The position numbers and the translations under genes are program-made. 64,000 nt of DNA from Cytophaga aurantiaca DSM 3654 (GTDB taxonomy: Bacteria > Bacteroidota > Bacteroidia > Cytophagales > Cytophagaceae). The stretch is taken from contig NZ_KB903630.1 of the NCBI RefSeq assembly GCF_000379725.1, forward strand, positions 11,045 to 75,044, written 5' to 3'. A model generated the notes under the pieces. The model searched no databases. It worked only from the letters and a program-made list of their open reading frames with translations, and was not told the origin of the DNA. Positions 10,826-46,116 of this stretch are shown here, piece after piece. The first letter of the stretch is position 1. Each line of letters starts with the position of its first letter.

Positions 10826-12847
<2,022 letters not shown>

Positions 12848-12894: not shown

Positions 12895-12902
12895 TAGATT
12901 TG
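12895..12902 (+). promoter_or_regulatory. Putative -7 box of mtgA
   Basis: TAGATTTG matches the Bacteroidota TAnnTTTG box and lies 35 bases upstream of the mtgA ATG. No clear -33 TTG is seen at the expected distance. Confidence 0.35.
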
Positions 12903-12937
12903 TAAAGATTTAGTACTCGTGTTCGAATTTCTTTAGA

Positions 12938-13639
12938 ATGAAAAAAATCAGGTTAATTGCTTTAACAAGTGTCATGTACTTTTTTGTGTATACGATTCAG
13001 ATAGTGATCGTACATAGGTTTGTTAATCCAGTTGTTACGCCGCTTATGATCTGGCGTGTTGCTCAAGGTGTTTTCGGAGCAGACCACTCGTTGGTTATAC
13101 ATAAGACCTGGAAACCGATAGAAAAAATTTCACCCAATATGGTGTATGCGGTTATGGCCTCCGAAGATCAGCGGTTTCTGCAGCACAATGGATTTGAGTG
13201 GGACGCCATTAAAAAAGCAATGGCCTACAATAAAAAGCATAAAGGTAAAAAGATGAAAGGTGCTTCTACTATCAGTCAGCAGACCGCTAAAAATGTTTTT
13301 TTATTTCCATCACGCACCTGGATCCGGAAAGGTGCTGAAATGTATTTCACATTTCTCATAGAAGTCATCTGGTCGAAAGAACGGATCATGGAAGTGTATT
13401 TAAATATCATTGAATTAGGAGATGGCATCTATGGGGTTGAAGCAGCATCTGAAATTTATTTTAAAACTACTGCACTAAAACTTTCCAAGAAGCGTGCTGC
13501 ATCACTTGCAGCGATATTGCCCTTGCCATTAGAGTGGTCGCCAACAAAACCGGGAAGGTATACAGCAAATCGTATCATCAAGATCGAGGCGCAAATGAAT
13601 TCGGTTGAACAACCTTCCTGGCTGCTGAAATCAAAGTAA
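12938..13639 (+). CDS. mtgA: Monofunctional peptidoglycan glycosyltransferase
   Basis: Polymerises lipid II into glycan strands. The 233-residue product has an N-terminal membrane anchor ([23 protein letters not shown]) followed by a GT51 domain alone, with no transpeptidase domain. Seen: the catalytic [18 protein letters not shown] motif, [42 protein letters not shown] and the WSPTKPGRY end. The 3' end overlaps the convergent TrpD-like gene by 9 bases. Confidence 0.95.
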
Positions 13640-19465: not shown

Positions 19466-20695
19466 ATGAGAGTATCTAAAACAGTTAAGAATACAATTTT
19501 GGGTTTGGGTTTAGCGGGTTCGTTATTTGTGTTTCCGTCCGCAAAATCAATTCACCAACAATCGGAAGTTATAAAGTTGGGTTTCATTCCTCTAACAGAT
19601 TGTTCTCCCGTAGTAATGGCAAAAGAGTACGGCTATTACAAAAAGTATGGAGTAAATGTTGAATTGAGTAAAGAAGCTTCGTGGGCAAACGTTCGTGATA
19701 AAATATTAACAGGCGAACTTCAGGGTGCACACTGTTTAGCAAGTATGCCATTTTCTGTATACACTGGTGTTGGCGGTAAGGCTGGTTCTGAAATGAAAGT
19801 TGCTATGATCATCAATACAAACGGACAGGCGATCACACTCTCCAATGAATTTTGTGGTAAAGTTGGTTACAAACAAACCGGAAAAGTTAAAGGTGTTGTT
19901 GATGCACGTAAAGCTGCTGGAAAAGAGTTGACATTTGCCATGACGTTTCCGGGTGGTACACACGATCTATGGTTGAGAAACTGGTTGGTGAATTCAGGTG
20001 TGGATCAAAAAAGTGTAAAGATCATTACCATACCACCTCCGCAAATGGTTGCGAACATGAAAGTAGGGAACATGGATGGTTTCAGTGTAGGTGAGCCATG
20101 GAACGGTGTTGCTGTAAAACAAGGCGTTGGTTTTACACACATTGCAAGTCAGGATATCTGGAAGCATCATCCTGAAAAAGCATTGGTAGTGAACAAAGCA
20201 TTTTCTGAAAGCAGAAGAGATGATTTGAAAAAAGTAATGAAAGCGGTGTTGGACGCATGCAAAATTTTGGATGTAATGGCGAACAGAAAACAAGCAGCGC
20301 CGATTGTTGGCGGACCTAATTACATCAATGCTCCATCAGATGTTATTGATAACCGTTTAGCAGGTATCTATGATTTAGGTTGCAATCAAGGTCAGGTTAC
20401 GTATGCTGATGATTATATGTTGTTCCATAAAAAAGGTGCTGTAAACTTTCCTCGTAAGGCACATGCTATGTGGTTTATGGCACAATATGTTCGTTTTGGA
20501 TATTTAGAAACTGCTCCTGATTACAGCGCGATTGCTGATAAATTATTGATGCAGGATTTATACAAAGAAGTTGCCGGTGAAATGGGAATTGCAATCCCAG
20601 CAGATGACATGAAACCATTCGCTCTAACGATTGAGCCGGGTGCGTTATTTGATCCTACGAATATTGCAGCCTATTTAAAAGTTTGCAAAAAATAA
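19466..20695 (+). CDS. nrtA: ABC transporter substrate-binding protein, nitrate type (NrtA/CmpA family)
   Basis: A 409-residue periplasmic binding protein with an N-terminal signal (MRVSKTVKNTILGLGLAGSL...). Seen: LGFIPLTDCSPVVMAKEYGYYKKYGVNVEL, GAHCLASMPFSVYTGVGG, FPGGTHDLWLRNWLV and GFSVGEPWNGVAV, all typical of NrtA/CmpA/NasF proteins that bind nitrate, nitrite or bicarbonate. The nearby nitrate reductase favours nitrate. It is followed directly by the permease and ATPase genes. Confidence 0.88.
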   Translation: MRVSKTVKNTILGLGLAGSLFVFPSAKSIHQQSEVIKLGFIPLTDCSPVVMAKEYGYYKKYGVNVELSKEASWANVRDKILTGELQGAHCLASMPFSVYTGVGGKAGSEMKVAMIINTNGQAITLSNEFCGKVGYKQTGKVKGVVDARKAAGKELTFAMTFPGGTHDLWLRNWLVNSGVDQKSVKIITIPPPQMVANMKVGNMDGFSVGEPWNGVAVKQGVGFTHIASQDIWKHHPEKALVVNKAFSESRRDDLKKVMKAVLDACKILDVMANRKQAAPIVGGPNYINAPSDVIDNRLAGIYDLGCNQGQVTYADDYMLFHKKGAVNFPRKAHAMWFMAQYVRFGYLETAPDYSAIADKLLMQDLYKEVAGEMGIAIPADDMKPFALTIEPGALFDPTNIAAYLKVCKK

Positions 20696-20724
20696 ATAAC
20701 AACTTGATTAATCTCGTGTATACT

Positions 20725-21594
20725 ATGAAAACGATGATACTTAAAAAGTTTATACCTGGGTTAACAGTAACTGGATCTGATGCTTCTCAAGAAGCATCAG
20801 GTACCGCTGCTGTTCTGTTTAAGAAAATTTGGAATCAACTTCAACCAGTATTGCTGGCGTTTGTTGGTATTGGAATGTTTTTGCTTTTCTGGGAAGGAAT
20901 CAGTGTGTTTCTAAAACGCGAAATGCCCGGACCTGCATCTACACTTTCTGTTTTATTCAGTATGTTGGTAAATCCCTTTTACGACTACGGACCTAATGAT
21001 AAAGGTATAGGATTACAGTTATGGTATTCAATGATTCGTGTAGCAATGGGTTTTGGCTTAGCTACGATATTTGCCATTCCGATTGGAATGTTGTTAGGTG
21101 CAAGTAAATTGTTTTATAAAATGTTTGATCCGATCGTTCAGATATTAAAACCGGTTTCACCGCTTGCATGGTTCCCGATTGGCTTGGTGGCATTTCAGAA
21201 TTCAGCTTCTGCAACAACGTTTATCATCTTCGTTACTTCGTTGTGGCCAACACTTATTAATACGGCAGTAGGCGTTGCTTCTATTCCGGATGATTTTAAA
21301 AACGTAAGTAAAGCATTTGGTTTCTCGAGAACCAAATATGTAATGAAGATTATGATCCCGTATGCATTGCCTCATATCATTACAGGATTACGTTTGAGTA
21401 TTGGTGTAGCATGGCTTGTAATTGTAGCCGGTGAAATGTTGTCTGGCGGTACAGGTATTGGTTTCTTTGTATGGGATAGCTGGAATGCATTAAGTCTTGA
21501 AAAAGTAATTTCGGCAATTATTATTATAGGGGTTGTGGGTTTAATTCTGGACCGTCTTTTCTTATCACTTGGTAAATTGGTTACGTACAAATAA
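20725..21594 (+). CDS. nrtB: Nitrate ABC transporter permease
   Basis: A 289-residue inner membrane permease of the BPD_transp_1 family. After a soluble N-terminus it has about six spans and the EAA-type loop VSKAFGFSRTKYVMKIMIPYALPHIITGLRLSIGVAW that docks the ATPase. The ATG at 20725 is used; an upstream TTG-like extension would overlap nrtA by 13 bases. Strong match to NrtB/CmpB. The ATPase gene starts 12 bases downstream. Confidence 0.88.
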   Translation: MKTMILKKFIPGLTVTGSDASQEASGTAAVLFKKIWNQLQPVLLAFVGIGMFLLFWEGISVFLKREMPGPASTLSVLFSMLVNPFYDYGPNDKGIGLQLWYSMIRVAMGFGLATIFAIPIGMLLGASKLFYKMFDPIVQILKPVSPLAWFPIGLVAFQNSASATTFIIFVTSLWPTLINTAVGVASIPDDFKNVSKAFGFSRTKYVMKIMIPYALPHIITGLRLSIGVAWLVIVAGEMLSGGTGIGFFVWDSWNALSLEKVISAIIIIGVVGLILDRLFLSLGKLVTYK

Positions 21595-21606
21595 ATTATT
21601 CGACTT

Positions 21607-22446
21607 ATGGAAAATGCAACTGATAAATTAGATATAAATAATACAAAGGTATATCATTCTGCTCTTGGAATTCAGATCAGAGATATGACGATCTCTTTCC
21701 CAACTCCTGCAGGAACTTATGTAGCAGTTAAGAATGTAAACCTGAATATTAAAAAAGGGGAGATCGTTTCAGTGATCGGACATTCAGGTTGTGGTAAGTC
21801 CACAATACTGAATGCAATTGCAGGAATGGTAAAACCAAGCAAAGGAGAAGTTGTTGTAAATTATAAAACCATTTCTGCACCGGGACCGGATAGAGGAATT
21901 GTGTTTCAGAATTATTCATTGCTGCCTTGGTTAACAGTTCAGAAGAATATTTATGAAGCGGTTGACTCTGTGTTTTCATCTAAATCAAAAACTGAAAAAA
22001 ATGAAATAGTAGATTACTATTTGCATAAAGTAGGTTTGTATGTGCATAAAAATAAATTGCCTCAACAGATCTCCGGCGGGATGAAACAGCGTACAGCTAT
22101 TGCACGTGCGTTCTCTATCAATCCGAGTATATTATTATTGGATGAACCATTCGGAGCATTGGATGCATTGACTAAGACTTCTTTGCATGAAGAGTTAACG
22201 CAGCTTTGGGCATCGGATGAACATAAAAAAACAATTCTAATGGTTACACACGATATTGAAGAAGCTATTTATCTGTCTGATAAAATTGTTGTAATGACCA
22301 ACGGTCCGGCTGCTACAATAGGTGATGTAATTGAAGTGAACATCCCGAGACCTCGAGAGAAAAAATCATTTGTTGCAAGTCCTGAATATAAGGCAATACG
22401 AGACAAGCTGCTATATCTGTTAATGGACGCATACGCGGCCGCTTAA
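21607..22446 (+). CDS. nrtD: Nitrate ABC transporter ATPase
   Basis: A 279-residue ATPase with Walker A GHSGCGKST, Q-loop VFQNYSLLPW, signature ISGGMKQRTAIARA, Walker B ILLLDEP and the H-loop VTHDIEEA. The LLPWLTV wording after the Q-loop is typical of the nitrate/sulfonate/taurine family. It drives uptake with nrtA and nrtB. No second ATPase (NrtC type with a fused binding domain) is present. A terminator follows. Confidence 0.9.
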   Translation: MENATDKLDINNTKVYHSALGIQIRDMTISFPTPAGTYVAVKNVNLNIKKGEIVSVIGHSGCGKSTILNAIAGMVKPSKGEVVVNYKTISAPGPDRGIVFQNYSLLPWLTVQKNIYEAVDSVFSSKSKTEKNEIVDYYLHKVGLYVHKNKLPQQISGGMKQRTAIARAFSINPSILLLDEPFGALDALTKTSLHEELTQLWASDEHKKTILMVTHDIEEAIYLSDKIVVMTNGPAATIGDVIEVNIPRPREKKSFVASPEYKAIRDKLLYLLMDAYAAA

Positions 22447-24322: not shown

Positions 24323-24384
24323 TACGTAAAATAAATAGGTATAATTACTTAGTTATTACGTAAAGTTGCTTATATTTGTACGTA
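24323..24384 (+). promoter_or_regulatory. narK promoter with three TACGTA sites
   Basis: TATATTTG at 24371-24378 is an exact TAnnTTTG box. TACGTA occurs at 24323-24328, 24357-24362 (between the expected -33 and -7) and 24379-24384 (at the expected transcription start). A TACTTA is at 24346-24351. The arrangement suggests direct control of narK by the factor that binds TACGTA. Confidence 0.6.
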
Positions 24385-24414
24385 AGTATTGATAACCCTT
24401 TTACTCGTACCCTT

Positions 24415-25737
24415 ATGAACTCGTTAAAAGCAACTAAAATTAACTTATTTAGTTTTAAAACACCGAATATGAAAGCGTTCCACTTAACATGGATGGCTTT
24501 TTTCTTATGTTTTTTTGGCTGGTTTGGTATTGCACCGCTTATGGTTATTGTTCGTGAAGAACTTCATTTAACCAAAGGAGAGATTGGTAATATCATGATT
24601 GCGTCGGTATCGATTACCATATTTGCACGCTTGCTGATCGGATATTTATGTGATCGCATCGGGCCGCGCATCATGTATTCAGCCTTGTTGATCATCGGTG
24701 CATTTCCGGTTATGTTTATCGGTTTAAGTAACGATTATACTTCGTTCTTATTATTCAGATTGGTAATCGGTGTGATCGGTGCATCTTTTGTAATTACACA
24801 ATTTCATACTTCATCTATGTTTGCTCCAAATGTAATTGGTACAGCAAATGCAGTAACTGCGGGCTGGGGAAATTTAGGCGGCGGAGTTACACAGCTTGTA
24901 ATGCCTTTGATCTTTGCAGGTTTTGTTGCCTTAGGTTTTACAAACAGTGAATCATGGAGATTGGCGATGGTTGTTCCCGGTGTAGCATTGTTTATTATGG
25001 GGATCATTTATTTTTTGTATACAACAGATACTCCGGAAGGAAATCTTGCTGATCTGAAAAAGAAAGATCCGACGTTCACATTAAAGAAAAAACAATCACA
25101 GGTATCTTTTGCAACTGTATTAAAAGATTATCGTGTATGGGTGTTGGCATTTTGTTACGGAGCATGTTTTGGTATTGAAATTACGATCGATAACATTGCA
25201 GCGTTGTACTTTAAAGATAAATTCAATTTGTCGTTAGCGGCTGCAGGTTTGATTGCTGCATCGTTTGGTATGATGAATATTTTTGCCCGCGCATTAGGTG
25301 GTATGTTAAGTGATAAAGTAAGTATTACAAAAGGTTTAAACGGCAGAGTGCTAGTATTGGGCAGTTGTATTCTGTTAGAAGCTATCGGTATTTTGATATT
25401 TGCAAACATGGAAGTTCTTGTATTTTCAGTTATCTCCATGATCTGTTTTGCATTGTTTGTTAAAATGTCAAATGGTGCAACGTATGCCGTTGTTCCGTTC
25501 ATCAATAAAAATGCGGTAGGAAGTGTAGCAGGTATTGTAGGTGCAGGTGGTAATCTCGGTGCTGTGTTGATGGGCTTCTTATTTAAAAGTGAAGATTTAA
25601 CATACAACGATGCATTTAAGATCATTGGATATTGTATATTAGGAATAGCTGCGCTAGCCTTTACCATTCGATTTGTTACCTCAACAGCATCGGTATCTTC
25701 TAAATCTGAAATAGTGATTGAAGAAGTTGTAGCATAG
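24415..25737 (+). CDS. narK: Nitrate/nitrite transporter, NarK family (MFS)
   Basis: A 440-residue inner membrane protein with twelve predicted spans. Seen: FFLCFFGWFGIAPLMVIVREELHLTK, the MFS loop motif CDRIGPRIMY, the nitrate signature AGWGNLGGG (first half) and GAGGNLGAVLMG (second half) that line the substrate path in NarK/NasA/NRT2 proteins. ATG 24415 is chosen because the upstream TTG at 24376 lies inside the promoter. It is 44 bases from the nitrate reductase gene, so the two probably share a transcript. Confidence 0.92.
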   Translation: MNSLKATKINLFSFKTPNMKAFHLTWMAFFLCFFGWFGIAPLMVIVREELHLTKGEIGNIMIASVSITIFARLLIGYLCDRIGPRIMYSALLIIGAFPVMFIGLSNDYTSFLLFRLVIGVIGASFVITQFHTSSMFAPNVIGTANAVTAGWGNLGGGVTQLVMPLIFAGFVALGFTNSESWRLAMVVPGVALFIMGIIYFLYTTDTPEGNLADLKKKDPTFTLKKKQSQVSFATVLKDYRVWVLAFCYGACFGIEITIDNIAALYFKDKFNLSLAAAGLIAASFGMMNIFARALGGMLSDKVSITKGLNGRVLVLGSCILLEAIGILIFANMEVLVFSVISMICFALFVKMSNGATYAVVPFINKNAVGSVAGIVGAGGNLGAVLMGFLFKSEDLTYNDAFKIIGYCILGIAALAFTIRFVTSTASVSSKSEIVIEEVVA

Positions 25738-25781: not shown

Positions 25782-28700
25782 ATGGCTGCTTCAAATAAAA
25801 CATATACATCTACGTGTTCTTATTGCGGCGTAGGCTGCGGCGTTAAGATACACAAATCTGTATCCGGCTCTCTTCAGATCGAAGGGGATGAATCACATCC
25901 TGCCAATAAAGGCATGTTGTGTTCAAAAGGAATGAATCTGCATTATGCTGCGATGGATCAATCCGATCGGTTGCTGTATCCGGAGATGCGAGGCAATCGC
26001 AGTATGCCTTTGCAGCGTGTTACATGGGACACAGCATTAGATAGAGCAGCAGCGGTGTTTAAATCATTGATCTCAACATATGGACCCGACTCAGTTGGGT
26101 ATTATGTTTCCGGTCAATGCTTAACAGAAGAATATTATATCGCTAATAAAATCACGAAAGGTTTTATTGGGACAAATAATATAGATACTAATTCCAGATT
26201 GTGCATGAGTTCGGCGGTGGCGGGATACAAGCTAGCCTTAGGCGAAGATTCTGTTCCGCTGAGCTATGACGATATTGAATTGGCAGATTGTTTTTTTATT
26301 GCCGGTGCAAATCCTGCCTGGTGTCATCCGATCTTATTCAGAAGATTAGAAAATCACAAAGCGGCAAATCCGGATATTAAAATAATTGTTGTAGATCCGC
26401 GCAAGACTCAATCCTGTTCGCTTGCAGACATTCATTTACAGATACAACCAGGAACAGATATTGTATTATATCATGCAATCGCACGTAGGTTAATTGAAAC
26501 CGGAAAAATTGATTTAGAATTTATTGTAAATCATACGAGTGGATTTGAAGCGTTTAAAGATAAAGTATCTGTTCTGAGCATTCAGGAAGCTGCAGATATT
26601 TGTGTTGTAGAAAGTGATTTAATCATCAAAGCTGCCGATATGATCGGAGCTTCCAAAGCCTTCATATCTATGTGGGCAATGGGATTGAATCAAAGCGTGA
26701 TTGGAGTAAATAAAAATGTTTCCTTATTAAATTTATCTTTAATTACAGGGCAGATTGGTAAGCCGGGAGCAGGGCCGCTTTCATTGACCGGGCAACCGAA
26801 TGCAATGGGCGGAAGAGAAGTTGGAGGCTTATCAAATATGTTGCCTGCACACAAAAATCTTGCAAACCCTGAACACAGACAAGAGGTAGCAGATTTTTGG
26901 GGTGTTCCCAAGATCAGTGAGAAAGCAGGATTAACTGCTACAGAAATGTTTGATCAATTGCTTTCAGGAAAGATGAAAGCAGTGTGGATCATTTGTACCA
27001 ACCCTTTGGTTAGTTTGCCGGATGCGCGCAATGCAGAAGCTGCGCTGCGTAACGCACGTTTTGTAGTTGTTCAGGATATTTCGGATAAGCATGAAGCTAT
27101 TCCATATGCTGATTTAGTTTTACCTGCAGCAGGATACATGGAGAAAGAAGGCGTGATGACCAATTCGGATCGTCGAATGAGCTATCTTTCTAAAGTAATG
27201 GAACCGCCCGGGGAAGCATTACCGGATGTTGAAATTCTTTGTCGTTTTGCTGCCAAAATGGGTTGGAAAGATTCGTTTAATTATTCTTCCAATGCAGAAA
27301 TTTTTGAAGAATATACACGCATCACAAAGAATACCAATATTGATATCAGCGGCCTAACGTATGCAGATCTGATCGAACGCAGAAGCGTGCAGTGGCCGGT
27401 GCCTACACCCGGACATCCGGGGACACCGCGGTTATTCACCGATCATAAATTTTATACGCCTACAGGATTGGCAAATATTATTTCAGTTGATTCAATGAAT
27501 CATTCTGAACAATTAGATGCGGATCATCCCTTGATACTTACTACTGGACGCATTCGGGATCAGTGGCATACGATGACACGTACCGGAAAAGTACGTAAAC
27601 TGAATAAGCATATTTCTAAACCTTTCCTTGAGATGCATCCTGTAGATGCTAAAAAGCGTGGCATTAAACAGGATGATATTGTTACGATTGAAAGCAGAAG
27701 AGGAGATGTTCGTGTAACTGTAATTCTTACAGAAGACATTAAGCCCGGTGTCGTATTTCTTCCGATGCATTGGGGAAGATTGTTAAGTACTGATTTGACA
27801 CGCGCCAACAATCTTACCAATAATTTAGTTGATCCGATTTCTAAAGAACCGGATTTTAAATACACGGCTGTAGAAGTTACGAAGTATGTTAAAAAGAAAG
27901 AGCATATTGTTATTGTTGGTGCAGGTGCAGCTGCTTGTCAGTTTATTAAACGTCATCGTGAATTAGGATCTGAAGATACACTTACGGTATTCAGTGCAGA
28001 GAATTATCATTTTTATAACAGAGTATTGCTGCCTGAGTATGTTAGTAAACACAAGCATTGGGAAAATTTAGAAAAGCTACGTAAAGCAGAATGGCTGGAA
28101 TTGGGTGTGAAACTTATTCCGAAAAAAATAACAAAATTAATTACGGAGTCAAATTCTATTGTTGATGAATCAGGCGAAGTGCATCATTATGATCGCTTGG
28201 TTGTAGCAACGGGTAGTCGTGCTGCTACGATGAAAAATCTTCCTACGTTGAATGGTGTTTTTACCATGCGGCGAAGAGAAGATGCAGATGGTTTAATGCA
28301 TCATATTTCCCCGGGCGATTCGGTTGTTGTTGTTGGAGGTGGTTTGTTGGGTCTGGAAATGGCCGATGCTCTGGTGGAAATTGGCATGAAGGTTTCAGTT
28401 CTTCAACGGTCGTCCCGTTTGATGGACAGGCAACTGGATAAAACAGCTGCAAGTCTGTTAGCGAAAGAGCTTCGCGATCGTGGTATGGATTTATACTTTG
28501 ATGATGAAGTGTTGTATATAAACGGTGAATATTCCGTTGAAAGCATTCGTTTGAAAAGTAGCCGTAAGATTGATTGCAAAGCAATTCTGTTTGCAATCGG
28601 TACACAACCCAATGTCGAATTCCTGAAACAAGCCGGATTGACTGTGAATAGAGGTGTAGTGGTAGATGAACATTTACAGACTTCAAATGAGCATGTGTAC

Positions 28701-29312
28701 GCAATGGGCGAAATTGCTGAACGCAATGGAGCGCTCTTTGGTATTACTGCTGCGGCAGAAGAGCAAGCAAATGTATTGGCTGAATATTTGAATGGCAGCA
28801 CCACTTCAAATTATCTGAGCACACTTAGTATGAACATTCTGAAAGTTCATGGAGTAGAATTATGTTCGATCGGTATGGTAGAAACACCGACAAATGATCC
28901 TGCATACGAAGAAATTATTTTCCTGGATAAAACACGAAAATATTATAAGAAATGTATTGTGTATCAGGATCGCCTGGTGGGTGCGCTTCTCATGGGTGAT
29001 AAATCTGAATTCAATGAATTCAGAGATTGGATAAAATCAGGAGTAGAGCTTGGTGAGAAACGCGAAAGCTTATTGATGTCCGGAAGTATTTCCAAAGAAG
29101 CGATGTTGGGAAAACTGGTATGTTCTTGCAACACCGTAGGCAGTGGAAATATTGAAAACGCAATAAAAGGTGGCTGCAAAGATGTAACATCTATTTGTAA
29201 TACAACCGGTGCAGGTACAGGATGCGGAAGCTGTAAACCTGAAGTGAAAGCAATTTTAGATCGTTTGAATGCTGAATTAGAAACTTCTAAACCCCGAGAG
29301 TCTTATGCCTAA
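25782..29312 (+). CDS. nasA: Assimilatory nitrate reductase fused to FAD reductase and [2Fe-2S] domain
   Basis: A 1176-residue fusion. Residues 1-690: molybdopterin oxidoreductase with the [4Fe-4S] ligands C12, C15, C19 and C47, Mo ligand C141 in SRLCMSS, and C-terminal molydopterin-dinucleotide binding domain (TTGRIRDQWHTMTRTG). Residues about 705-1090: pyridine-nucleotide-disulfide-type FAD reductase with VIVGAGAAACQF and a second Rossmann motif VVVVGGGLLGLEMA. Residues about 1110-1150: BFD-like [2Fe-2S] domain with C1114xC1116 and a later CGSC. In other bacteria the catalytic and FAD subunits are usually separate (NasC/NasA or NasA/NasB). This one likely takes electrons from NAD(P)H by itself. 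It overlaps the next gene by 8 bases. Confidence 0.93.
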   Translation: MAASNKTYTSTCSYCGVGCGVKIHKSVSGSLQIEGDESHPANKGMLCSKGMNLHYAAMDQSDRLLYPEMRGNRSMPLQRVTWDTALDRAAAVFKSLISTYGPDSVGYYVSGQCLTEEYYIANKITKGFIGTNNIDTNSRLCMSSAVAGYKLALGEDSVPLSYDDIELADCFFIAGANPAWCHPILFRRLENHKAANPDIKIIVVDPRKTQSCSLADIHLQIQPGTDIVLYHAIARRLIETGKIDLEFIVNHTSGFEAFKDKVSVLSIQEAADICVVESDLIIKAADMIGASKAFISMWAMGLNQSVIGVNKNVSLLNLSLITGQIGKPGAGPLSLTGQPNAMGGREVGGLSNMLPAHKNLANPEHRQEVADFWGVPKISEKAGLTATEMFDQLLSGKMKAVWIICTNPLVSLPDARNAEAALRNARFVVVQDISDKHEAIPYADLVLPAAGYMEKEGVMTNSDRRMSYLSKVMEPPGEALPDVEILCRFAAKMGWKDSFNYSSNAEIFEEYTRITKNTNIDISGLTYADLIERRSVQWPVPTPGHPGTPRLFTDHKFYTPTGLANIISVDSMNHSEQLDADHPLILTTGRIRDQWHTMTRTGKVRKLNKHISKPFLEMHPVDAKKRGIKQDDIVTIESRRGDVRVTVILTEDIKPGVVFLPMHWGRLLSTDLTRANNLTNNLVDPISKEPDFKYTAVEVTKYVKKKEHIVIVGAGAAACQFIKRHRELGSEDTLTVFSAENYHFYNRVLLPEYVSKHKHWENLEKLRKAEWLELGVKLIPKKITKLITESNSIVDESGEVHHYDRLVVATGSRAATMKNLPTLNGVFTMRRREDADGLMHHISPGDSVVVVGGGLLGLEMADALVEIGMKVSVLQRSSRLMDRQLDKTAASLLAKELRDRGMDLYFDDEVLYINGEYSVESIRLKSSRKIDCKAILFAIGTQPNVEFLKQAGLTVNRGVVVDEHLQTSNEHVYAMGEIAERNGALFGITAAAEEQANVLAEYLNGSTTSNYLSTLSMNILKVHGVELCSIGMVETPTNDPAYEEIIFLDKTRKYYKKCIVYQDRLVGALLMGDKSEFNEFRDWIKSGVELGEKRESLLMSGSISKEAMLGKLVCSCNTVGSGNIENAIKGGCKDVTSICNTTGAGTGCGSCKPEVKAILDRLNAELETSKPRESYA

Positions 29313-30771
29313 ACAAGTATCGATTCAGGTTTATTGCAACGGAGGTTTTGTATCTCCGGGAGAATTGAGAAAGATTGCTATGCTGGCACAGCAGTTTGGT
29401 GCGAATTGTCTGCAATTAGGGATACGTCAGGAAATTCGTTTTTCAATTGACAAAGATCAGGTTGAGCAATTCAAAGTACGTATGAAATTGCTGTCCTTGC
29501 AATATTCTATCAGCGTTCATGAATCCTATAATATTATTTGTTCTGCTTTAGTAAAAGATATACTCAAAACGAAAGTTTGGTTAACAGAAGGAGATTATCG
29601 GGATATTTTAGATAGCTTTGATTTTCAGCCACGCATTGCGATCAATATTGTTGATCCCGATCAGCATGCCATTCCTTTATTTACAGGAGTATTGAATTTT
29701 GTGGCATCTTCCACAGAAAATTACTGGAATGTGTATTTTTCTTTGCCTCAACAAAAGGAGCAAGGCTGGATGCCGATCCTGATCCAATCCGATAAGATTG
29801 CTAACTTTAGTATGTTTATTCAAACATGTATTCAGGCTCAGGATAAGATTTCGTTATCTGAATTGATGGAAGAATTATATCAATTGGATACATGGAATTT
29901 TAAAAAGGTGGATAGTTATCCGGCTATTCCGGATTATCATTTTTTTCCTGTAGAAGGTTTTCATACCAATGGAAATGCGCAGTGGTTGGGTATATTTAAT
30001 AAATCGAACGAGTTTTCAATTGCATTGATCGATGCTATTTGTGTCGAAGCATTGGAGTCGAATATCGGTACAATTTACATCACTCCCTGGGATAGTTTTT
30101 TATTGAAAAATATAGCACCTACACGAATTCTGTTTTGGGAAAATTTACTTGGCTTGTATAATGTGAATACAGGGCATGCTGCTCATGAGCTGAATTGGAA
30201 CATGAATGAATGGAATGAAAACAGCAATGAGGTGCGAACCTATGTGAATGATTATTTCCGAGTAAAAGATGAACGCACGGAAGGTTTGATCATAGGTGTG
30301 AACAATGAGGCCAACGATAATTTTTATTCCATTAAAATTGTTGAGGAGCCATTGTTTAGTTTATTCGGAAGAAATTATTTTTCAGTATACCATATTCGAT
30401 ATAAAGAAAATTTCAATCCCAATAATCCGGTAGATAAATCCTTTATGGATTATGTTAAAAAGAAAAATTTACCAGAATTTATCTGTTATTTGACACGGGA
30501 ATTTTACAGAAAGAAAAATGCTCAGTCTGAAAAAGTTGAAGTGAAGCAAAAGGCTACGCCTTCAGTTATAAAGCGTAAAGAGAGCTTTGAGTTTGTGTAT
30601 CAGTGTACTAGTTGTTTAACATTGTATGATCCGGAATTTGGAGATCCGGATGAAGGTATTGTTGCAGGTACATCGTATGATGAATTACCTGAAAATTATT
30701 GCTGCTCTATCTGTTCAAATCCAAAAAAAGGCTTTAAATTGTTTTTAGGTTTCGATAAAGAACATGCATAG
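29305..30771 (+). CDS. Protein with nitrite/sulfite-reductase-like half-domain and C-terminal rubredoxin
   Basis: A 488-residue protein that I cannot match to a named family. The C-terminus (about 428-482) is a clear rubredoxin: C434xxC437 and C467xxC470, with YDPEFGDPDEGI and the Tyr/Pro pattern between. The N-terminus (about 8-75), GGFVSPGELRKIAMLAQQFG then LQLGIRQEIRF, resembles the ferredoxin-like half-domain of siroheme nitrite/sulfite reductases, but no siroheme/[4Fe-4S] Cys cluster follows. It overlaps nasA by 8 bases and moaA by 8 bases (ATG inside the stop region), so it is tightly coupled to nitrate reductase. Role as an electron carrier or assembly factor for nitrate reductase is inference. 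Confidence 0.8.
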   Translation: MPKQVSIQVYCNGGFVSPGELRKIAMLAQQFGANCLQLGIRQEIRFSIDKDQVEQFKVRMKLLSLQYSISVHESYNIICSALVKDILKTKVWLTEGDYRDILDSFDFQPRIAINIVDPDQHAIPLFTGVLNFVASSTENYWNVYFSLPQQKEQGWMPILIQSDKIANFSMFIQTCIQAQDKISLSELMEELYQLDTWNFKKVDSYPAIPDYHFFPVEGFHTNGNAQWLGIFNKSNEFSIALIDAICVEALESNIGTIYITPWDSFLLKNIAPTRILFWENLLGLYNVNTGHAAHELNWNMNEWNENSNEVRTYVNDYFRVKDERTEGLIIGVNNEANDNFYSIKIVEEPLFSLFGRNYFSVYHIRYKENFNPNNPVDKSFMDYVKKKNLPEFICYLTREFYRKKNAQSEKVEVKQKATPSVIKRKESFEFVYQCTSCLTLYDPEFGDPDEGIVAGTSYDELPENYCCSICSNPKKGFKLFLGFDKEHA

Positions 30772-31714
30772 CACACTTATAAAGGATTCATTCGGACGGG
30801 AATTTAAAACACTTCGCGTGAGTTTAACTTCTTTGTGTAATATGGCGTGTGTGTATTGTGTAACACCTGGTGTTGTTCAAACAGAAAACAAACAAACCGT
30901 ACTTACTACTGCAGAATATCTTTCTATAATTAAAAAAATTCATGAGCAGGTTGGTTTGAAAACAATACGATTAACAGGAGGAGAACCATTGTTATTTAAT
31001 GAGATCTCTACACTGATTAAAGGTATTGTTGAACTTGGAATTACAGACATCAAACTTACTACAAATGGCTTGAGATTATCTGCAATGCTGGATGATTTGG
31101 TTGATGCGGGTTTAAGATCTGTAAATATTTCCTTGGATGCACTCGATCCTACAGTATTTCGGTCTATTACAAAAGTTCATAATATTCGTTTGGTATTGGA
31201 TGCAATTGAAAATGCCATTGCAAAAGGATTGGAAGTAAAGATCAATACAGTTGTATTAAGAGGAGTGAACGACCATCAGATCATTCCGTTGTTCGAATAC
31301 GCTTCAAGTAGAAATATTTCCATTCGTTTTTTGGAACTCATGAAGATGGGCTACTTGCATTACAACGAAACAGATCATTTTTATGGAATGGATGAGATCG
31401 TAGAAAAGATATCTTCTGTTACAACTATTGCTAAAATGGAACGGGCCGGGTCTAACACAGCTACATACTGGCAAACAAGCAAGGGGATGGTGTTTGGTAT
31501 TATTGCCAATGAATCAGAGCCTTTCTGTTCAGATTGCAACAGACTTCGTTTGGATAGCTTAGGTAAAATATATGGCTGCATCAGTGCTGCAGAAGGTATT
31601 GATGTTAAAACAAGTGCCGATGCTTTTTTAACAGAAGCTTTAGAGACTGCCTTAGCACAAAAACAAGATCACTTTACAGGAAGTGAAATAAGCATGAAAT
31701 ATATTGGAGGATAA
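30764..31714 (+). CDS. moaA: GTP 3',8-cyclase
   Basis: Radical SAM enzyme for the first step of molybdenum cofactor synthesis. The 316-residue product has C25xxxC29xxC32 in LTSLCNMACVYC for the SAM cluster, RLTGGEPLL, and the C-terminal cluster ligands in EPFCSDCNRLR and IYGC. It ends in GG, the conserved end of MoaA, so it is full length. Start overlaps the preceding rubredoxin gene by 8 bases. The cofactor is needed by the adjacent nitrate reductase. Confidence 0.95.
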   Translation: MHSTLIKDSFGREFKTLRVSLTSLCNMACVYCVTPGVVQTENKQTVLTTAEYLSIIKKIHEQVGLKTIRLTGGEPLLFNEISTLIKGIVELGITDIKLTTNGLRLSAMLDDLVDAGLRSVNISLDALDPTVFRSITKVHNIRLVLDAIENAIAKGLEVKINTVVLRGVNDHQIIPLFEYASSRNISIRFLELMKMGYLHYNETDHFYGMDEIVEKISSVTTIAKMERAGSNTATYWQTSKGMVFGIIANESEPFCSDCNRLRLDSLGKIYGCISAAEGIDVKTSADAFLTEALETALAQKQDHFTGSEISMKYIGG

Positions 31715-38991: not shown

Positions 38992-39939
38992 TCAATGTCC
39001 TCCGCCTTTCATCATTTTCCGTGCATGAAATACTGCCGGTAAAATTGCTTCCAAGCATTCGCGCACGCCGTTGCTGCTGCCCGGTAAAGTAACAATCAAT
39101 GTTTCATGGATCGCACCTGCCACCGCCCGCGACATCATCGCAAGTGGTGTACGCATTTGCCCGTATACACGCATTGCTTCTGTGATTCCATCGGCATCAC
39201 GTTCTATAATTGCTTTTACTGCTTCAACGGTTTTATCTCTTGGACCTAAACCGGTACCGCCCGTAGTAAATATGTAGGCATAATCTTCGGCTACCCATGC
39301 ACGTATTTTTTCCTGAATATGCATCGGTTCGTCTGGCACAATATCATACGAGACATTTGTAATGCCATGCTCGTTTAACATTTCTAGGATCTTTTTCCCG
39401 GAACTGTCTTCGCGTTTTCCTTCAAAAGTGGAATCGGAGCAAACCAATACAGCACATCTCGGTGGTGTGTTAAAATATTTCTGTCCGCTTTTACCACCTG
39501 TTTTTTCAAGCAATCGAATAGGACCTATACTTAGATTTTTATCAATATTTTTTAATAGATCATAGACCGTTAACGCTGCAATTGAAATACCTGTTAGTGC
39601 TTCAATTTCAATTCCCGTCCTGCCGATTGATTTTATTTGTGAACGTATAACAACACCGTGTAAGCCTTCTAATGAAATGCCAAGTTCATCTGTATGTTTT
39701 ACAGGATCCAGTATTTCAAAATCAACAGACATGCCATCGATACCAACCGGGTGACAATGCGGAATAAGTTGTGATGTATTTTTGGCTGCTAAAAATGCTG
39801 CAGCACGAGCCACATCAAACATGTTTCCTTTTGGTAAGGTGTCGTTTTTTATATGATCAATCGTGGATGCAGAACAGGTAACCATACCAATTCCGGTTGC
39901 TGTACGCAGAGTAATCTGTTTGCCGCTGATATCACGCAT
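38992..39939 (-). CDS. moaC: MoaC-MoaB (MogA-type) fusion
   Basis: A 315-residue bifunctional protein. Residues 1-150 are MoaC, cyclic pyranopterin monophosphate synthase, with LIPHCHPVGIDGMSVDF and TGIEIEALTGISIAALTVYDL. Residues about 160-305 are a MoaB/MogA domain that adenylates molybdopterin, with VCSDST, FTTGGTGLGPRDKTVEA and LPGSSNGVRECLEAILP. The two steps flank MoaDE in the pathway, so fusion does not channel consecutive intermediates. It forms an operon with moeA. Confidence 0.95.
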   Translation of the reverse strand: MRDISGKQITLRTATGIGMVTCSASTIDHIKNDTLPKGNMFDVARAAAFLAAKNTSQLIPHCHPVGIDGMSVDFEILDPVKHTDELGISLEGLHGVVIRSQIKSIGRTGIEIEALTGISIAALTVYDLLKNIDKNLSIGPIRLLEKTGGKSGQKYFNTPPRCAVLVCSDSTFEGKREDSSGKKILEMLNEHGITNVSYDIVPDEPMHIQEKIRAWVAEDYAYIFTTGGTGLGPRDKTVEAVKAIIERDADGITEAMRVYGQMRTPLAMMSRAVAGAIHETLIVTLPGSSNGVRECLEAILPAVFHARKMMKGGGH

Positions 39940-41370: not shown

Positions 41371-43014
41371 ATGACTGAACAATATCTTGCTCTGATTTCT
41401 TTGATTGCTCCATTAACTTTTGTTGTCACAGCAATTGTCTCTTGGTTTCAACCAGGCATGCGTCCAGAATTTATGAAGGGAATAAGTACGTTAACAACCG
41501 GGGTTAGTATAATCGTTGCTGCTGTATGTGCTTATTTGGTTTTTATAAACGGGCTTTTAGAAACATCCTTATTAGGAATGAATCAACTTGGGTTTAGTAT
41601 CCGACTAGATACATTAAGTGTATTGATGTTGTCGATGATTTCTTTAATTAGTTTCATTGTAGTTAAGTTTAGTTTAAATTATTTAGACGGTGATAAGCGA
41701 CAAGGCATATTTATTGGTCGATTAGCAGCAACCATCGCATCTGTACAATTATTAGTTCTTTCAGGCAATTTGGCATTGTTATTTGCCTCTTGGGTTTTAA
41801 CAAGTGTTTCGTTACACCGCTTACTGGTATTTTACTCCGAACGTCCTGGTGCTATTGTTGTTGCTCGTAAAAAGTTTATCGTTGCTCGCTTAGGAGATGG
41901 TTGTTTGCTTGGTGCAATTATCGTATTATATTCAATATTCAAGACTGGTAATTTAGAAGTTATATTTCAATCCATAAAACTATCAATGGATTTAGGTATT
42001 GGAATTGTAAACATAGAATATGCAGCTATACTTTTAGTTTTTGCAGCGTTATTAAAGTCTGCTCAATTCCCTACGCATGGTTGGTTGATAGAAGTAATGG
42101 AAACACCAACCCCTGTTTCTGCACTCTTACATGCCGGATTGTTAAATGCAGGTCCATTTTTGATTGTTCGAATGGCATATATAATGGAAGTAAGTATGTA
42201 CTCTTCTTATATATTAATCATTGTTGGTGGATTTACAGCACTGTTTGCTTCAGTCGTATTTCTTACTCAAACATCTCTTAAAACGGCACTGGGTTACTCA
42301 AGTGTTGCACACATGGGATTTAGCTTACTTGTTTGTGGTCTTGGGTTGTATCCTGCTGCCATGTTGCATCTTGTAGCTCATTCTTTTTATAAAGCTCATG
42401 CCTTCCTTTCTTCAGGGAGTTTGATTGAGGTTATACGCACTTCACCAATTTTACAACCTAAACGAACAGGAAATCCTTTTAATATTGTGTTGGGAATTGT
42501 CTTAGCAATCTGTGTCTATATAATTTTCGCGTTACTTTGGGGGATTGATTTTGAAAATCAATTATCACTCTTAGCTATTGGAGCGATAATCGTAATGGGA
42601 CTTTCAACGTTATTTGCTTCTGCGCTTGATTCAAATGGAAGCTATAAGTTGATACTAAAAACTTCTTTATTAGCGATCGTTGTTGTGGCATTATTTTTCA
42701 CTCTCGAGTCGGGTATGCACTATTTGTTACATTCAGGTTTACCTCAACTACGCATATTAAGTACAGGTGAAATGATTTTAGTATGTCTTATTACGATCAT
42801 ATTTTCTGCTGCCGTATTTCTGCAAATTTATTCCCCTTTAACATCTTCGTCCTTATTCAGTAAATCGATCATACTTCATTTAAGAAACGGGCTTTACGCA
42901 AATACATTATTTGATAGACTGGTCGGGTCATTAAAGATTCATTTACAACCTCAGCATATTGAAATTTCAGACAATAATAAAATTGCTAATAAAGGACAAT
43001 CAGTAGAAGTATAA
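41371..43014 (+). CDS. dabB: DabB, proton-coupling membrane subunit of DAB inorganic carbon pump
   Basis: A 547-residue membrane protein of the NuoL/MrpA antiporter family with about 13 or more spans. Seen: the Proton_antipo_M core with LLKSAQFPTHGWLIEVMETPTPVSALLHAGLLNAGPFLIVRMA, the Glu/Lys/His set that carries protons, and YSSVAHMGF. No other complex I gene is near, and the next gene is dabA, so this is DabB, which couples ion flow to DabA. Cyanobacterial or complex I roles are thereby unlikely. Confidence 0.92.
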   Translation: MTEQYLALISLIAPLTFVVTAIVSWFQPGMRPEFMKGISTLTTGVSIIVAAVCAYLVFINGLLETSLLGMNQLGFSIRLDTLSVLMLSMISLISFIVVKFSLNYLDGDKRQGIFIGRLAATIASVQLLVLSGNLALLFASWVLTSVSLHRLLVFYSERPGAIVVARKKFIVARLGDGCLLGAIIVLYSIFKTGNLEVIFQSIKLSMDLGIGIVNIEYAAILLVFAALLKSAQFPTHGWLIEVMETPTPVSALLHAGLLNAGPFLIVRMAYIMEVSMYSSYILIIVGGFTALFASVVFLTQTSLKTALGYSSVAHMGFSLLVCGLGLYPAAMLHLVAHSFYKAHAFLSSGSLIEVIRTSPILQPKRTGNPFNIVLGIVLAICVYIIFALLWGIDFENQLSLLAIGAIIVMGLSTLFASALDSNGSYKLILKTSLLAIVVVALFFTLESGMHYLLHSGLPQLRILSTGEMILVCLITIIFSAAVFLQIYSPLTSSSLFSKSIILHLRNGLYANTLFDRLVGSLKIHLQPQHIEISDNNKIANKGQSVEV

Positions 43015-43049
43015 AAATATTTATTGAAACATTTAATCTTAAAAATAAT

Positions 43050-45560
43050 ATGACAGATCAACATATTTCGAAACAAATTTTATTTGAAGGTTTAACTGCT
43101 AAGCAACTTGACTTATTAGGGATAGTTCGAAAAGCATGTAAAAAAATTGCTCCCGTTTGGCCACTTGAGAATTTTGTTGCCGTCAACCCTTACTTAGGGT
43201 TGACCAATCTATCGTTTGAAAATGCAGCAAGAGAATTGGCAGCTGCCGGAGGAATACAAATGACTTTACCTACGTCGTTTTACTTACAAAAAATTAAAAC
43301 AGATGAAATTATCCATGAAGATTTAGAAAAGGTTTTAATCAAAAACGAATATTATTTAGGTGCACATGAATTTATAAAAGCGATCGAAAATTATTCCAGC
43401 AATTCCGAAGAACTTCAATCCATTTCTTCTCTTTCCGATATTGCTACAGAAGTGACTCAAAAAGATTGGAATCGATTTATGATTGCACGAATTTCTCTAT
43501 GGGCTGCATCCTATTTTGATAAAGGTCAGGCTGTTTGGGCGGTAGCAAATCAAACAGAAAGTTTATTTATGTCATGGAAAAATGAAGCGACAATAGATCT
43601 TACACCACAGTTAAGTGGCCTGAAAGATTTCAGAAAAAAAGTTTCGAAAATTCCGGATCATCCTATTGATGCTATACAGTACTCGTTAGATATATTAGGT
43701 GTGCCAGAAAAAGGATTGTCCATATATTTACATCGTTTACTCGTTAAAGTTGGCGGTTGGTCTGCTTATGCTGGTCAGCTAGATTGGGAAAACAATTTGT
43801 ATAATGGGAAAGATGGGAAGTTGATTGAGTTTTTAGCAGTTCTTGTATGTTGGGAAGCATGTTTGCTTGAAACCCTGAACAACGATCTTCTAAAAGAAAA
43901 ATGGAATGCGTCGATACAAATACTAACAATAGATGAAGTTTCTCAAAAAATGAATCATCAACTTTTTTACAAGTTGATTTTACAAGGAGCTTTTGATGTA
44001 TCTGCACAACGGAAAATTGTAAATAAATTCCAATTCAACAAAAAAAATAATATAAAAAAAATAGTTAAACCCAAAGCACAAGCAATATTCTGTATCGATG
44101 TTCGCTCAGAAGTTTACCGTAGAAATCTTGAATTAGTGGATACTAAAATCAAAACATATGGCTTTGCTGGTTTCTTTGGTTTATCAATCAAATATGTGCC
44201 GCTTGGACACATAGGTGGTGAAGCACAATGTCCAGTACTTCTTAAGACAGGGCCAACGATATTGGAAGAACTAATTGATATAAAACAAAATCAAATAGCA
44301 ATTCAAAATCGAGTACTGAATCAACAAGTGAATCAGATATGGAAATCTTTCAAAGCAGGAGCAGTTACGTGTTTTAGCTTTGTAAGTCCAATGGGCTTGA
44401 CCTATTTACCTAAACTCTTTACGGATTCATTTGGATTAACAAGACCTATACCTCATCCAGATAAAATTGGTTTAAAGAAGTCTTTTAATGAAAATAAAAC
44501 AGTCCGATTGGCTTTCAATACATACAATAATGAAAATGTAGGTATTGAAATAGCAAGTCAAATTGAAATGGCTAAAAATGCTTTGGTCGGAATGTCATTG
44601 ACAGATAATTTTGCTGGGTTTGTGTTACTTGTTGGTCATGGTTCAACCACAGTGAATAATCCCCATGCAACAGGCTTAGATTGTGGTGCATGTGGCGGAC
44701 ATACGGGTGAAGCAAATGCAAAAGTCGCTGCAGCCATTTTGAACAATACACTTGTGAGAGCAGGTTTGCAGACACATAATATTTACATTCCTGAAAATAC
44801 CATATTTCTAGCCTGTCTTCATGATACTACAACAGATGAAGTGAGAATCTTAAATCTACAAGATGTACCTGCCAATCGGAAAAATGAACTGATTGATCTT
44901 GAACAATCTTTGATTTACGCTGGTAAGGAATCTCGATCCGAGCGTTTTTTGCGTATGTATTCGAACTCAAAAGGGGATGTAGATAAACGTGTAATCGAAC
45001 GAAGTAAAGATTGGTCACAAATACGTCCGGAATGGGGGCTTGCCGGTTGCTCAACTTTTGTAATAGCACCTCGCGAAAAATCTTTGGGTATTGATTTAGA
45101 AGGTAAATCTTTTTTACATACATATGATTGGAAAAAAGATTCTAACTTTTCTGTTCTGGAAGCTATTATGACAGCACCAATGGTTGTTACAAGTTGGATT
45201 AACTTACAGTACTACGCATCTACGGTAGACAATAAAAATTTTGGTTCGGGTAATAAAACACTTCATAATATCACAGCAGGGTTAGGAGTGCTTGAGGGAT
45301 ATTCGGGTGATTTACGAGTGGGGCTTCCATGGCAATCTGTTCATGATGGCGAAAACTTTCAACACGAACCACTTAAATTAAATGTAATAATTGCAGCTCC
45401 AATGTCTGCTATAAATAATGTAATACAGAAGCATAATAGTGTAAGAGATCTCTGTGATAATGGTTGGTTGCAACTTTTAATAATGGATGAAGTAGGAGAG
45501 ATTTCACATCGATATGAGGGTAATCTAATTTGGGAAGAATTAAATAAAAATGTAGCATAA
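43050..45560 (+). CDS. dabA: DabA, DUF2309 carbonic-anhydrase-like subunit of DAB pump
   Basis: An 836-residue cytoplasmic protein of the UPF0753/DUF2309 family. It is thought to hydrate CO2 in one direction when powered by DabB, so bicarbonate accumulates. The zinc site is intact: C348 and D350 in FCIDVRSE, H530 in VGHGST, and C545 in GLDCGACGG; the H-to-C distance of 15 residues equals that of the studied Halothiobacillus DabA. VAVNPYLGL near the N-terminus is also a family mark. It lies 35 bases after dabB. Confidence 0.95.
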   Translation: MTDQHISKQILFEGLTAKQLDLLGIVRKACKKIAPVWPLENFVAVNPYLGLTNLSFENAARELAAAGGIQMTLPTSFYLQKIKTDEIIHEDLEKVLIKNEYYLGAHEFIKAIENYSSNSEELQSISSLSDIATEVTQKDWNRFMIARISLWAASYFDKGQAVWAVANQTESLFMSWKNEATIDLTPQLSGLKDFRKKVSKIPDHPIDAIQYSLDILGVPEKGLSIYLHRLLVKVGGWSAYAGQLDWENNLYNGKDGKLIEFLAVLVCWEACLLETLNNDLLKEKWNASIQILTIDEVSQKMNHQLFYKLILQGAFDVSAQRKIVNKFQFNKKNNIKKIVKPKAQAIFCIDVRSEVYRRNLELVDTKIKTYGFAGFFGLSIKYVPLGHIGGEAQCPVLLKTGPTILEELIDIKQNQIAIQNRVLNQQVNQIWKSFKAGAVTCFSFVSPMGLTYLPKLFTDSFGLTRPIPHPDKIGLKKSFNENKTVRLAFNTYNNENVGIEIASQIEMAKNALVGMSLTDNFAGFVLLVGHGSTTVNNPHATGLDCGACGGHTGEANAKVAAAILNNTLVRAGLQTHNIYIPENTIFLACLHDTTTDEVRILNLQDVPANRKNELIDLEQSLIYAGKESRSERFLRMYSNSKGDVDKRVIERSKDWSQIRPEWGLAGCSTFVIAPREKSLGIDLEGKSFLHTYDWKKDSNFSVLEAIMTAPMVVTSWINLQYYASTVDNKNFGSGNKTLHNITAGLGVLEGYSGDLRVGLPWQSVHDGENFQHEPLKLNVIIAAPMSAINNVIQKHNSVRDLCDNGWLQLLIMDEVGEISHRYEGNLIWEELNKNVA

Positions 45561-45756: not shown

Positions 45757-46116
45757 TTATTCATTTAGGCCAATAAAAATTAAACCGTCTTCTACTTTGA
45801 TTGGATAGGTCTTTATAGTGTAGTCATCGCCAGACATGCAATGACCGTCCTTTAGGGAAAATGATTTTTTATGAAATGGACAGGCAACTTTAGGTTCGTC
45901 GCTCATATCACCGATCATACCACGCGATAAGATCATTTGTTGTTTATGCGGACATAGATTGTCTGTTGCAAACCATTCATTGCGACGTGTAAAATTGAAG
46001 ATCGCAATTTGTTTTCCCTGGATCATGGCACATGCGCCACCGTTTTCCGGTACATCTGAAATCGTACCGGCTTTATACCAGGTTGTATCTGTAGTTGTGA
46101 TTGTTGCGTTTGTCAT
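45757..46116 (-). CDS. nirD: Nitrite reductase small subunit
   Basis: A 119-residue Rieske-fold protein that partners NirB. It shows DNLCPHKQQMILSRG and ACPFHKKSFSLKDGHC; NirD proteins have a Rieske fold, but here the CxH...CxxH ligand pairs are present (CPH and CPFHK), so a cluster could bind. It is 24 bases after nirB and ends the operon before a terminator. Confidence 0.9.
   Translation of the reverse strand: MTNATITTTDTTWYKAGTISDVPENGGACAMIQGKQIAIFNFTRRNEWFATDNLCPHKQQMILSRGMIGDMSDEPKVACPFHKKSFSLKDGHCMSGDDYTIKTYPIKVEDGLIFIGLNE

Follow-up and report, generated by a model that had tools for sequence, protein, structure and literature searches.

A siroheme-reductase-fold protein without cluster ligands and with a C-terminal rubredoxin, encoded beside nasA in Cytophaga aurantiaca

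The schemes usually applied to nitrate assimilation in Bacteroidota come from other phyla. In Cytophaga aurantiaca DSM 3654, an open reading frame (ORF) for a protein of 488 amino acids (aa) that ends in a rubredoxin lies between nasA and moaA, which raises the question of what such a protein does beside a nitrate reductase. The locus was analyzed in a stretch of 64,000 nucleotides, hereafter called the window (contig NZ_KB903630.1, positions 11,045 to 75,044), where the ORF occupies positions 29305-30771 of the plus strand. The protein has a predicted siroheme-reductase fold, has lost the cluster ligands of that fold, carries a four-Cys rubredoxin and is closely linked to nasA. It is probably an unrecognized working part of the use of nitrate as nitrogen source in related bacteria, since relatives occupy the same place in many of them.

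A siroheme-reductase fold without cluster ligands

The ORF shares 8 bases with each neighbor, as an earlier note on this DNA had claimed: the last base of nasA is 29312 and the first of moaA is 30764. These overlaps on both sides suggest translational coupling. Relatives of the ORF are open over equal length in many genomes, and its nonsynonymous divergence (dN) from the two nearest genomes is far below the synonymous divergence (dS, which is large), indicating that it is not a chance ORF. In Pfam, the protein matched PF03460 (NIR_SIR_ferr) at residues 6-56 with 26.8 bits (cut-off 24) and the rubredoxin family PF00301 at residues 432-477 (E 4.9e-14), and no domain was found between residues 56 and 432. 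No Pfam or NCBIfam model covers the whole protein, and PF01077 did not match the family proteins at the thresholds used.

An AlphaFold model of the protein was built from 60 sequences (alignment A3), namely the window protein and 59 of the 80 loci kept from the contig scan described below. Its mean predicted local distance difference test score (pLDDT) was 87.9 and its predicted template modeling score (pTM) 0.77. The best match of the model in the PDB by Foldseek was NirA of M. tuberculosis (E 7.4e-17). With VIA-align, residues 6-408 (29320-30528, plus strand) matched residues 81-546 of the E. coli sulfite reductase SiRHP (4g38) with Z 25.6 over 378 residues, at a root-mean-square deviation (rmsd) of 3.6 and 11% identity. 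The predicted fold of this core is the complete two-fold core of NirA and CysI. The earlier note had seen an N-terminal segment like one half-domain of siroheme reductases and had proposed structure prediction as a check; the relation to siroheme reductases stands and the fold is not an unrelated one, but the resemblance extends far beyond a half-domain.

Profile comparisons also placed the core near NirA and CysI. Global comparison gave E 1.5e-8 to NirA (407 columns) and 2.3e-6 and 6.6e-7 to two CysI sets, and local comparison gave 4.1e-6 and 1.2e-6 to the CysI sets and 4.2e-5 to NirA. The match to a mixed CysI/NirA profile had E 4.5e-9. The global scores thus favor NirA and the local ones CysI as the nearer relative, and NirA of an ancestral NasA operon is one candidate ancestor of the core. 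The NCBIfam matches of the 60 A3 members were weak and split among CobG (32), CysI (21 and 15) and NirA (20). Because the C-terminal half of NasA resembles NirB, the core was also considered as a split-off siroheme half of NirB. This was rejected: the best profile match to that half covered 35 columns (E 0.004), and the alignments with NirA and CysI span most of the core.

The ligands of the siroheme-coupled cluster are missing. Residues were counted in 136 rows, comprising the 60 of A3, 49 copies from family f24 and 27 from a near-genome set; these sets may share genomes. The motif CX5CXnCX3C was complete in none of them (0/60, 0/49 and 0/27), and the absence of the cluster Cys from the window protein, which the earlier note had pointed out, is a property of the family. 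The four cluster Cys are present in each of the 21 rows of the reference reductase set, which represent 20 proteins, one of them in duplicate. In the A3 cores, CX3C did not occur and CX5C occurred elsewhere in six rows; the f24 cores had neither half of the motif, and in the 27-row set CX5C was found in two rows, CX3C in one and both in none. The core of the window protein has neither.

In place of the expected CX5C, the relatives have an RHxxxELNW-type segment, which reads NTGHAAHELNW at residues 288-298 of the window protein and NxRHSSLELNW in most relatives. His291 within it is kept in 135 of the 136 rows, as is Glu217, and Arg41, Gln42 and Gln120 are kept in every row. The pairing of His291 with a cluster Cys differs between profile alignments, and no pairing is claimed. 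A Cys pair (CxxC) at core positions 246/249, which lies in a helix and away from the site of the siroheme cluster, was present in 50/60, 41/49 and 16/27 rows of the three sets; the window protein has the first Cys only.

An excerpt of PMC10229431 describes four basic substrate-binding residues in sulfite reductases. Positions of CysI were mapped to the core by profile alignment at 12-14% identity, and the equivalents of CysI Arg117 and Asn154 were kept in 60/60 A3 rows by this mapping. The four basic residues are presumably Arg83, Arg153, Lys215 and Lys217 of CysI. The set is incomplete throughout the family, as the position of Arg153 is Arg in 0/136 rows. The other three positions are basic in 58, 42 and 55 of the 60 A3 rows and in 32, 28 and 47 of the 49 f24 copies; in the window protein, three of the four sites are occupied by Gln8, Tyr75 and Ala112.

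The tail is a genuine rubredoxin domain (30598-30735, plus strand, residues 432-477) with Cys 434, 437, 467 and 470. Model residues 429-480 matched the rubredoxin 1rdg with Z 11.0 and rmsd 0.7, and both the four Cys and a full PF00301 match were present in 60/60 A3 rows, in agreement with the C-terminal rubredoxin claimed earlier. According to a whole-genome PF00301 search, this tail is the only rubredoxin of the genome. Compact tails occur in four NasA-bearing genomes (G028, G005, G422 and G499; loci L026, L028, L230 and L236).

Linkage to nasA and the rubredoxin-less copies

The upstream gene (25782-29312, plus strand) encodes a protein of 1176 aa that combines, according to Pfam and motifs, a molybdopterin nitrate reductase with a NirB-type FAD/NAD(P)H reductase and a BFD [2Fe-2S] domain. 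Its FAD half includes PF18267, the C-terminal domain of rubredoxin reductases, and its C-terminal half matches the N-terminal half of NirB (TIGR02374, positions 1-470). The named nitrate reductase models of NCBIfam match below their curated cut-offs. The product is very likely the nitrate reductase NasA because of its nitrate-gene surroundings and a plasmid homologue annotated as nitrate reductase. These surroundings comprise NarK, a nitrate ABC transporter, an alginate-type porin, nirBD and moa, mob and moe genes. The [4Fe-4S] and BFD motifs were both found in 80 of 84 NasA sequences, with or without the 488-aa gene; the four misses were three sequences cut at contig starts and one, at L139, with its MopB part in two frames.

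A contig scan with the single window protein found no relatives, and a scan with an alignment of wider relatives (A2) found 464, of which the best 80 were kept for neighborhood counts. Among these 80, the FAD part of NasA was upstream on the same strand in 80/80 and the MopB part also in 78; the contigs of the remaining two are about 3 kb long. The gap to nasA had a median of 40.5 bases (78 loci) and was at most 500 bases in 76/78. The core is found near moaA in 17/80 loci. The near genomes contained relatives in 24/59, and the NasA fusion was upstream in 19 of the 20 neighborhoods inspected among 30 near-genome loci, the exception being G037.

The same linkage was found across the phylum in an even sample of 392 genomes, where a NasA fusion was counted if the ORF had at least 1169 aa. 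The core was present in 33 genomes, the fusion in 36 and both in 31, and in all 31 the core gene was downstream of NasA on the same strand. The fusion thus occurs in 31/33 core-bearing genomes, so that the coupling to nasA claimed in the earlier note, for which co-occurrence had been proposed as a check, held, and gene linkage of the kind expected of a NasA subunit is present in both samples. The 110 phylum genomes with any match were not all accepted as family members: 33 match the core, and the other 77 matched at E 4e-16 or weaker and, among the matches listed, with the C-terminal rubredoxin part only. Identity to the window protein is 29-33% among relatives, and that of the NasA MopB part is 60-66% in the phylum sample.

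The two core-bearing genomes without the fusion (G440 and G181) both have rubredoxin-less copies. Five of the 36 genomes with the fusion have no core (G272, G066, G107, G210 and G233). All five loci contain a flavodoxin, an FAD/NAD flavin reductase and a NirA whose cluster Cys are intact (by tblastn, with domains checked for one), and no NirB-size match was found in these genomes. At one locus without the core (L136), a globin gene (PF00042; 7787-8233, plus strand) lies between the flavin reductase gene and the NasA fusion, an arrangement that recalls the narK-bjgb-flp-nasC operon of Bradyrhizobium.

Several other arrangements were seen. Genome G018 (L027, L032-L034) has two NasA fusions, each with an interrupted-looking copy nearby, and G450 has a second rubredoxin-bearing copy (L223) that neighbors none of the nitrate genes included in the search. 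A compact nitrate module on a plasmid of Spirosoma oryzicola (L226, NZ_CP089539.1) carries the gene, annotated 'rubredoxin', together with nirB, cobA, an alginate-type porin, NarK and nitrate reductase. The names of the best 80 relatives were taken as Bacteroidota or Balneolota except for one (L096); its contig is labeled as a Rickettsiales metagenome-assembled genome, has a gene order like that of Marinoscillum neighbors in the hit list and is probably mislabeled or mis-binned.

Family f24, which is probably Chitinophagaceae (a guess), contains the core in 44 of 195 genomes, in 49 copies. Ten of these copies end after the core and lack the rubredoxin. They form one clade (100/100) nested among rubredoxin-bearing copies, indicating one event and not eight; independent losses of the rubredoxin were rejected on this basis. 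For eight of the ten copies, the genome yielded no NasA fusion, and the other two genomes (G572 and G532) also have a rubredoxin-bearing copy next to NasA. The earlier note had held that a wide occurrence without nitrate reductase would speak against the coupling. This applies in part, to these eight copies.

All 35 f24 genomes with both the fusion and the core have a four-Cys copy (33 full and 2 compact), and only 1 of the 9 with the core and without the fusion has one. This copy, in G463, lies on a 7,969-base contig with 654 bases between the contig start and the gene. Two-by-two tests gave p 2e-6 and 2e-38; they ignore descent and scored G422 and G499 as rubredoxin-less since their compact tails were missed (they are otherwise counted as four-Cys), and the case is not rested on them.

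The rubredoxin-less copies retain Arg41, Gln42, Asn76, Gln120, Glu217, His291 and Asn297 in 10/10, as well as the 246/249 Cys pair in 10/10. Among five pairs of these copies, dN was far below dS in the two with estimable dS. The maintenance of the core under purifying selection in this clade indicates that the core is more than a tether for the rubredoxin. The rubredoxin tracks nasA, and the core has a second use of its own. The two kinds of copy, one with the rubredoxin and with nasA, the other lacking the rubredoxin and mostly nasA too, form a natural comparison for the role of each half.

NirB-size matches were found in 21/21 f24 genomes with both genes (the 21 included in this comparison out of 35 such genomes), in none of the eight genomes with rubredoxin-less copies only and in one of the 19 core-less f24 genomes covered. 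One genome with a rubredoxin-less copy (G459) had no siroheme reductase found. Heme and siroheme biosynthesis genes are located downstream of the core gene in the same order in G482, G463 and G440, and in G440 a CysI-type sulfite reductase is on the opposite side of the rubredoxin-less copy. This neighborhood looks ancestral because it is also beside the rubredoxin-bearing copies of G482 and G463, which suggests that the G440 copy stayed in its old place after nasA was lost.

At L140, in a genome without a NasA fusion found, a rubredoxin-less relative (9825-11120, minus strand) is divergent from a CysI-type sulfite reductase (11418-13547, plus strand) and neighbors the heme and siroheme biosynthesis genes that also flank the rubredoxin-bearing copies of G482 and G463. 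Membership of the rubredoxin-less copies in sulfite reductase operons, a candidate drawn from this locus, is weak, as none of the seven other rubredoxin-less loci inspected had nitrate or sulfite reductase genes in view. The only common neighbor among these seven is a small ORF of about 91 aa that adjoins the gene in two of them (G497 and G580). One rubredoxin-less copy searched against Pfam at E 0.001 matched no family. The CysI-type protein of L140 has a C-terminal HEPN domain (residues 592-652, PF05168, E 1.9e-7); the window genome has a separate CysI-type protein on another contig that is similarly long (714 aa).

The remaining nitrate genes of the window lie on both sides of the ORF. Upstream, on the plus strand, are nrtA, nrtB and nrtC-type nitrate ABC transporter genes (19466-22446; PF13379, PF00005, TIGR01184 and PF00528) and a NarK-type nitrate/nitrite transporter (24376-25737; TIGR00886, 311.9 bits with a cut-off of 311.7). 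The overlapping moaA (30764-31714, plus strand) matches PF04055 and PF06463, and TIGR02666 just below its cut-off. Further downstream, on the minus strand, are nirD for a Rieske-type small subunit (45757-46116; PF13806) and nirB (46141-48654; Pfam, and PF01077 in a genome search), whose product is the large subunit of the siroheme nitrite reductase and contains NIR_SIR together with an FAD/BFD part of its own. An apparent inorganic carbon transporter of the DabAB type, consisting of a Proton_antipo_M protein and DabA (PF10070, E 1.5e-250), is encoded at 41371-45560 (plus strand), with the molybdenum cofactor genes on one side and nirBD on the other. A MoaC fused to a MoCF_biosynth molybdopterin-binding domain is encoded as one 315-aa protein at 38992-39939 (minus strand).

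What the protein may do beside NasA

The reading that is tentatively preferred is that a degenerate NirA/CysI-type protein has been kept as a redox partner of NasA, with its rubredoxin served by the NasA FAD domain. The core would no longer bind a coupled [4Fe-4S]-siroheme center in the known way and would have gained the C-terminal rubredoxin. In bacteria where NirBD reduces nitrite, the protein would serve the NasA-diaphorase fusion as an accessory redox subunit. The core may dock on NasA and hold the rubredoxin at the FAD domain, where it could exchange single electrons with a flavin of the NirB or rubredoxin-reductase type. Since NasA already has its own chain to molybdenum, the more plausible direction would be from the NasA FAD to the rubredoxin. 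The protein is unlikely to be an obligatory electron donor to NasA because NasA shows the FAD-[2Fe-2S]-[4Fe-4S]-Mo set of domains and motifs whether or not the gene is present. Its ancestor may have been a nitrite or sulfite reductase whose metal center was lost once NirBD took over nitrite reduction, as the gene occupies the place held in other lineages by NirA, a flavodoxin and a reductase.

Several observations weigh against a role as redox partner of NasA. NasA has its FAD, [2Fe-2S] and [4Fe-4S] domains or motifs regardless of the 488-aa protein, leaving no gap in the chain to fill. PF18267 is present in NirB too, so that the rubredoxin-reductase-type flavin is not specific to NasA, and NirB is a possible second partner of the rubredoxin because its flavin domain is of the same kind. 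The correlation of rubredoxin with nasA counts once, since the rubredoxin-less clade is one event, and this clade, mostly without nasA, retains the core under purifying selection. Iron and zinc in the four-Cys site are indistinguishable by sequence, and the compact tails without most of the rubredoxin loop retain just the two CxxC pairs. Linkage also has its exceptions: G037 has both genes on different contigs, some loci have 1-2.4 kb between nasA and the core gene, and both G018 copies look interrupted.

Two other explanations start from the core and are each unlikely, to a similar degree. The old siroheme pocket may bind a tetrapyrrole, nitrite, nitric oxide (NO) or hydroxylamine, so that the protein would be a ligand-binding or catalytic one fed with electrons by its rubredoxin, as in the NO reductase flavorubredoxin. 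The five nearly invariant residues (Arg41, Gln42, Gln120, Glu217 and His291), all present in the 10 rubredoxin-less copies, the mostly basic character of three substrate-binding positions in A3 and the 246/249 Cys pair of most relatives point to such a site. The mapping, however, is by profile alignment at low identity, no row has Arg at the Arg153 position, just 32/49 f24 copies are basic at the first position and 28/49 at the third, and the window protein itself has replaced three of the basic residues and the second Cys of the pair. According to PMC4724949, Bradyrhizobium produces NO while assimilating nitrate, and its nasC operon includes a hemoglobin. A globin gene stands beside nasA in one of the five NasA loci without the protein, but a weak globin match was also found at L119, a locus with it.

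The alternative that the core is a pseudoenzyme scaffold, which just stabilizes NasA or tethers it to NirBD while the four-Cys tail is a structural metal site, is consistent with the loss of the cluster ligands, with the fast divergence of the family relative to the NasA MopB part and with the compact four-Cys tails of four NasA-bearing genomes. It does not account well for the conserved polar residues of the core, for the full rubredoxin match in all A3 rows or for the conservation of the core in the rubredoxin-less clade, eight genomes of which have neither a NasA fusion nor a NirB-size gene. Cofactor insertion, the second idea of the earlier note, would make the protein a maturation factor for NasA or NirB. 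This is very unlikely, and little points to such a role. The position of the window gene between nasA and moaA and the heme and siroheme biosynthesis genes downstream in three genomes, one of them with a CysI-type reductase on the other side, would fit this role, but moaA is near the gene in a minority of loci, 5 of the 36 NasA fusions occur without the gene and G459 has a rubredoxin-less copy with no siroheme reductase found.

A bolder version joins the redox partnership with a new site. Here the siroheme-reductase fold would have been re-tooled, its cluster segment being replaced by a segment with a nearly invariant His, and the old pocket would bind an N-oxide such as NO or a cluster-less tetrapyrrole and receive electrons through the rubredoxin from the flavin of the nitrate reductase. 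Taken jointly, this is quite unlikely. If true, the re-tooled fold would be a built-in side branch of nitrate assimilation in Bacteroidota, for example in NO removal or nitrite control.

Comparison with known systems

A further redox protein accompanies the NasA-diaphorase fusion in 31 of the 36 sampled genomes that have the fusion. The protein is hidden by its labels, being called 'rubredoxin' or a bare half-domain, and the plain annotation 'rubredoxin' masks the core. Among the matches listed (titles and abstract starts), no description of the protein was found in the open-licence PMC literature.

Compared with NirA and CysI (PF03460 and PF01077), the protein shares the complete two-fold core fold and the equivalents of CysI Arg117 and Asn154. 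These reductases, unlike the 488-aa protein, have the CX5CXnCX3C motif and Arg153 and carry no extra rubredoxin, and identity is about 11%; the siroheme-reductase fold has kept its shape yet lost its cluster ligands. CobG, the precorrin-3B synthase, is also a siroheme-reductase relative, and 32/60 members match TIGR02435 weakly (best 9.3e-8). CobG keeps the cluster Cys, which are absent in this family.

NirB resembles the locus in two ways: its N-terminal half is matched by the C-terminal half of NasA, and a siroheme-reductase-like partner adjoins. In contrast to NirB, which has FAD and BFD domains in the same chain, the core is part of a separate chain with two repeats, with PF03460 and PF00301 as its only domains, and has almost no profile similarity to the siroheme half of NirB.

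The tail is like rubredoxins of PF00301 in domain fold, in its four Cys and in the GD and LP positions of the family consensus, but here it accounts for just 50 of 488 residues, at the end of the chain. The flavorubredoxin NorV with its NADH reductase NorW likewise has a C-terminal rubredoxin on a larger protein, paired with an FAD domain of the rubredoxin-reductase type, and the proposed arrangement would work like NorW-NorV without membership of that family. The core of NorV is a diiron (metallo-beta-lactamase)/flavodoxin module; the match of the window protein to PRK05452 covers just residues 403-478, its core is a siroheme reductase in fold, and the reductase domain lies within NasA. The folds are known ones, but their combination, the degeneracy of the core and its context are new.

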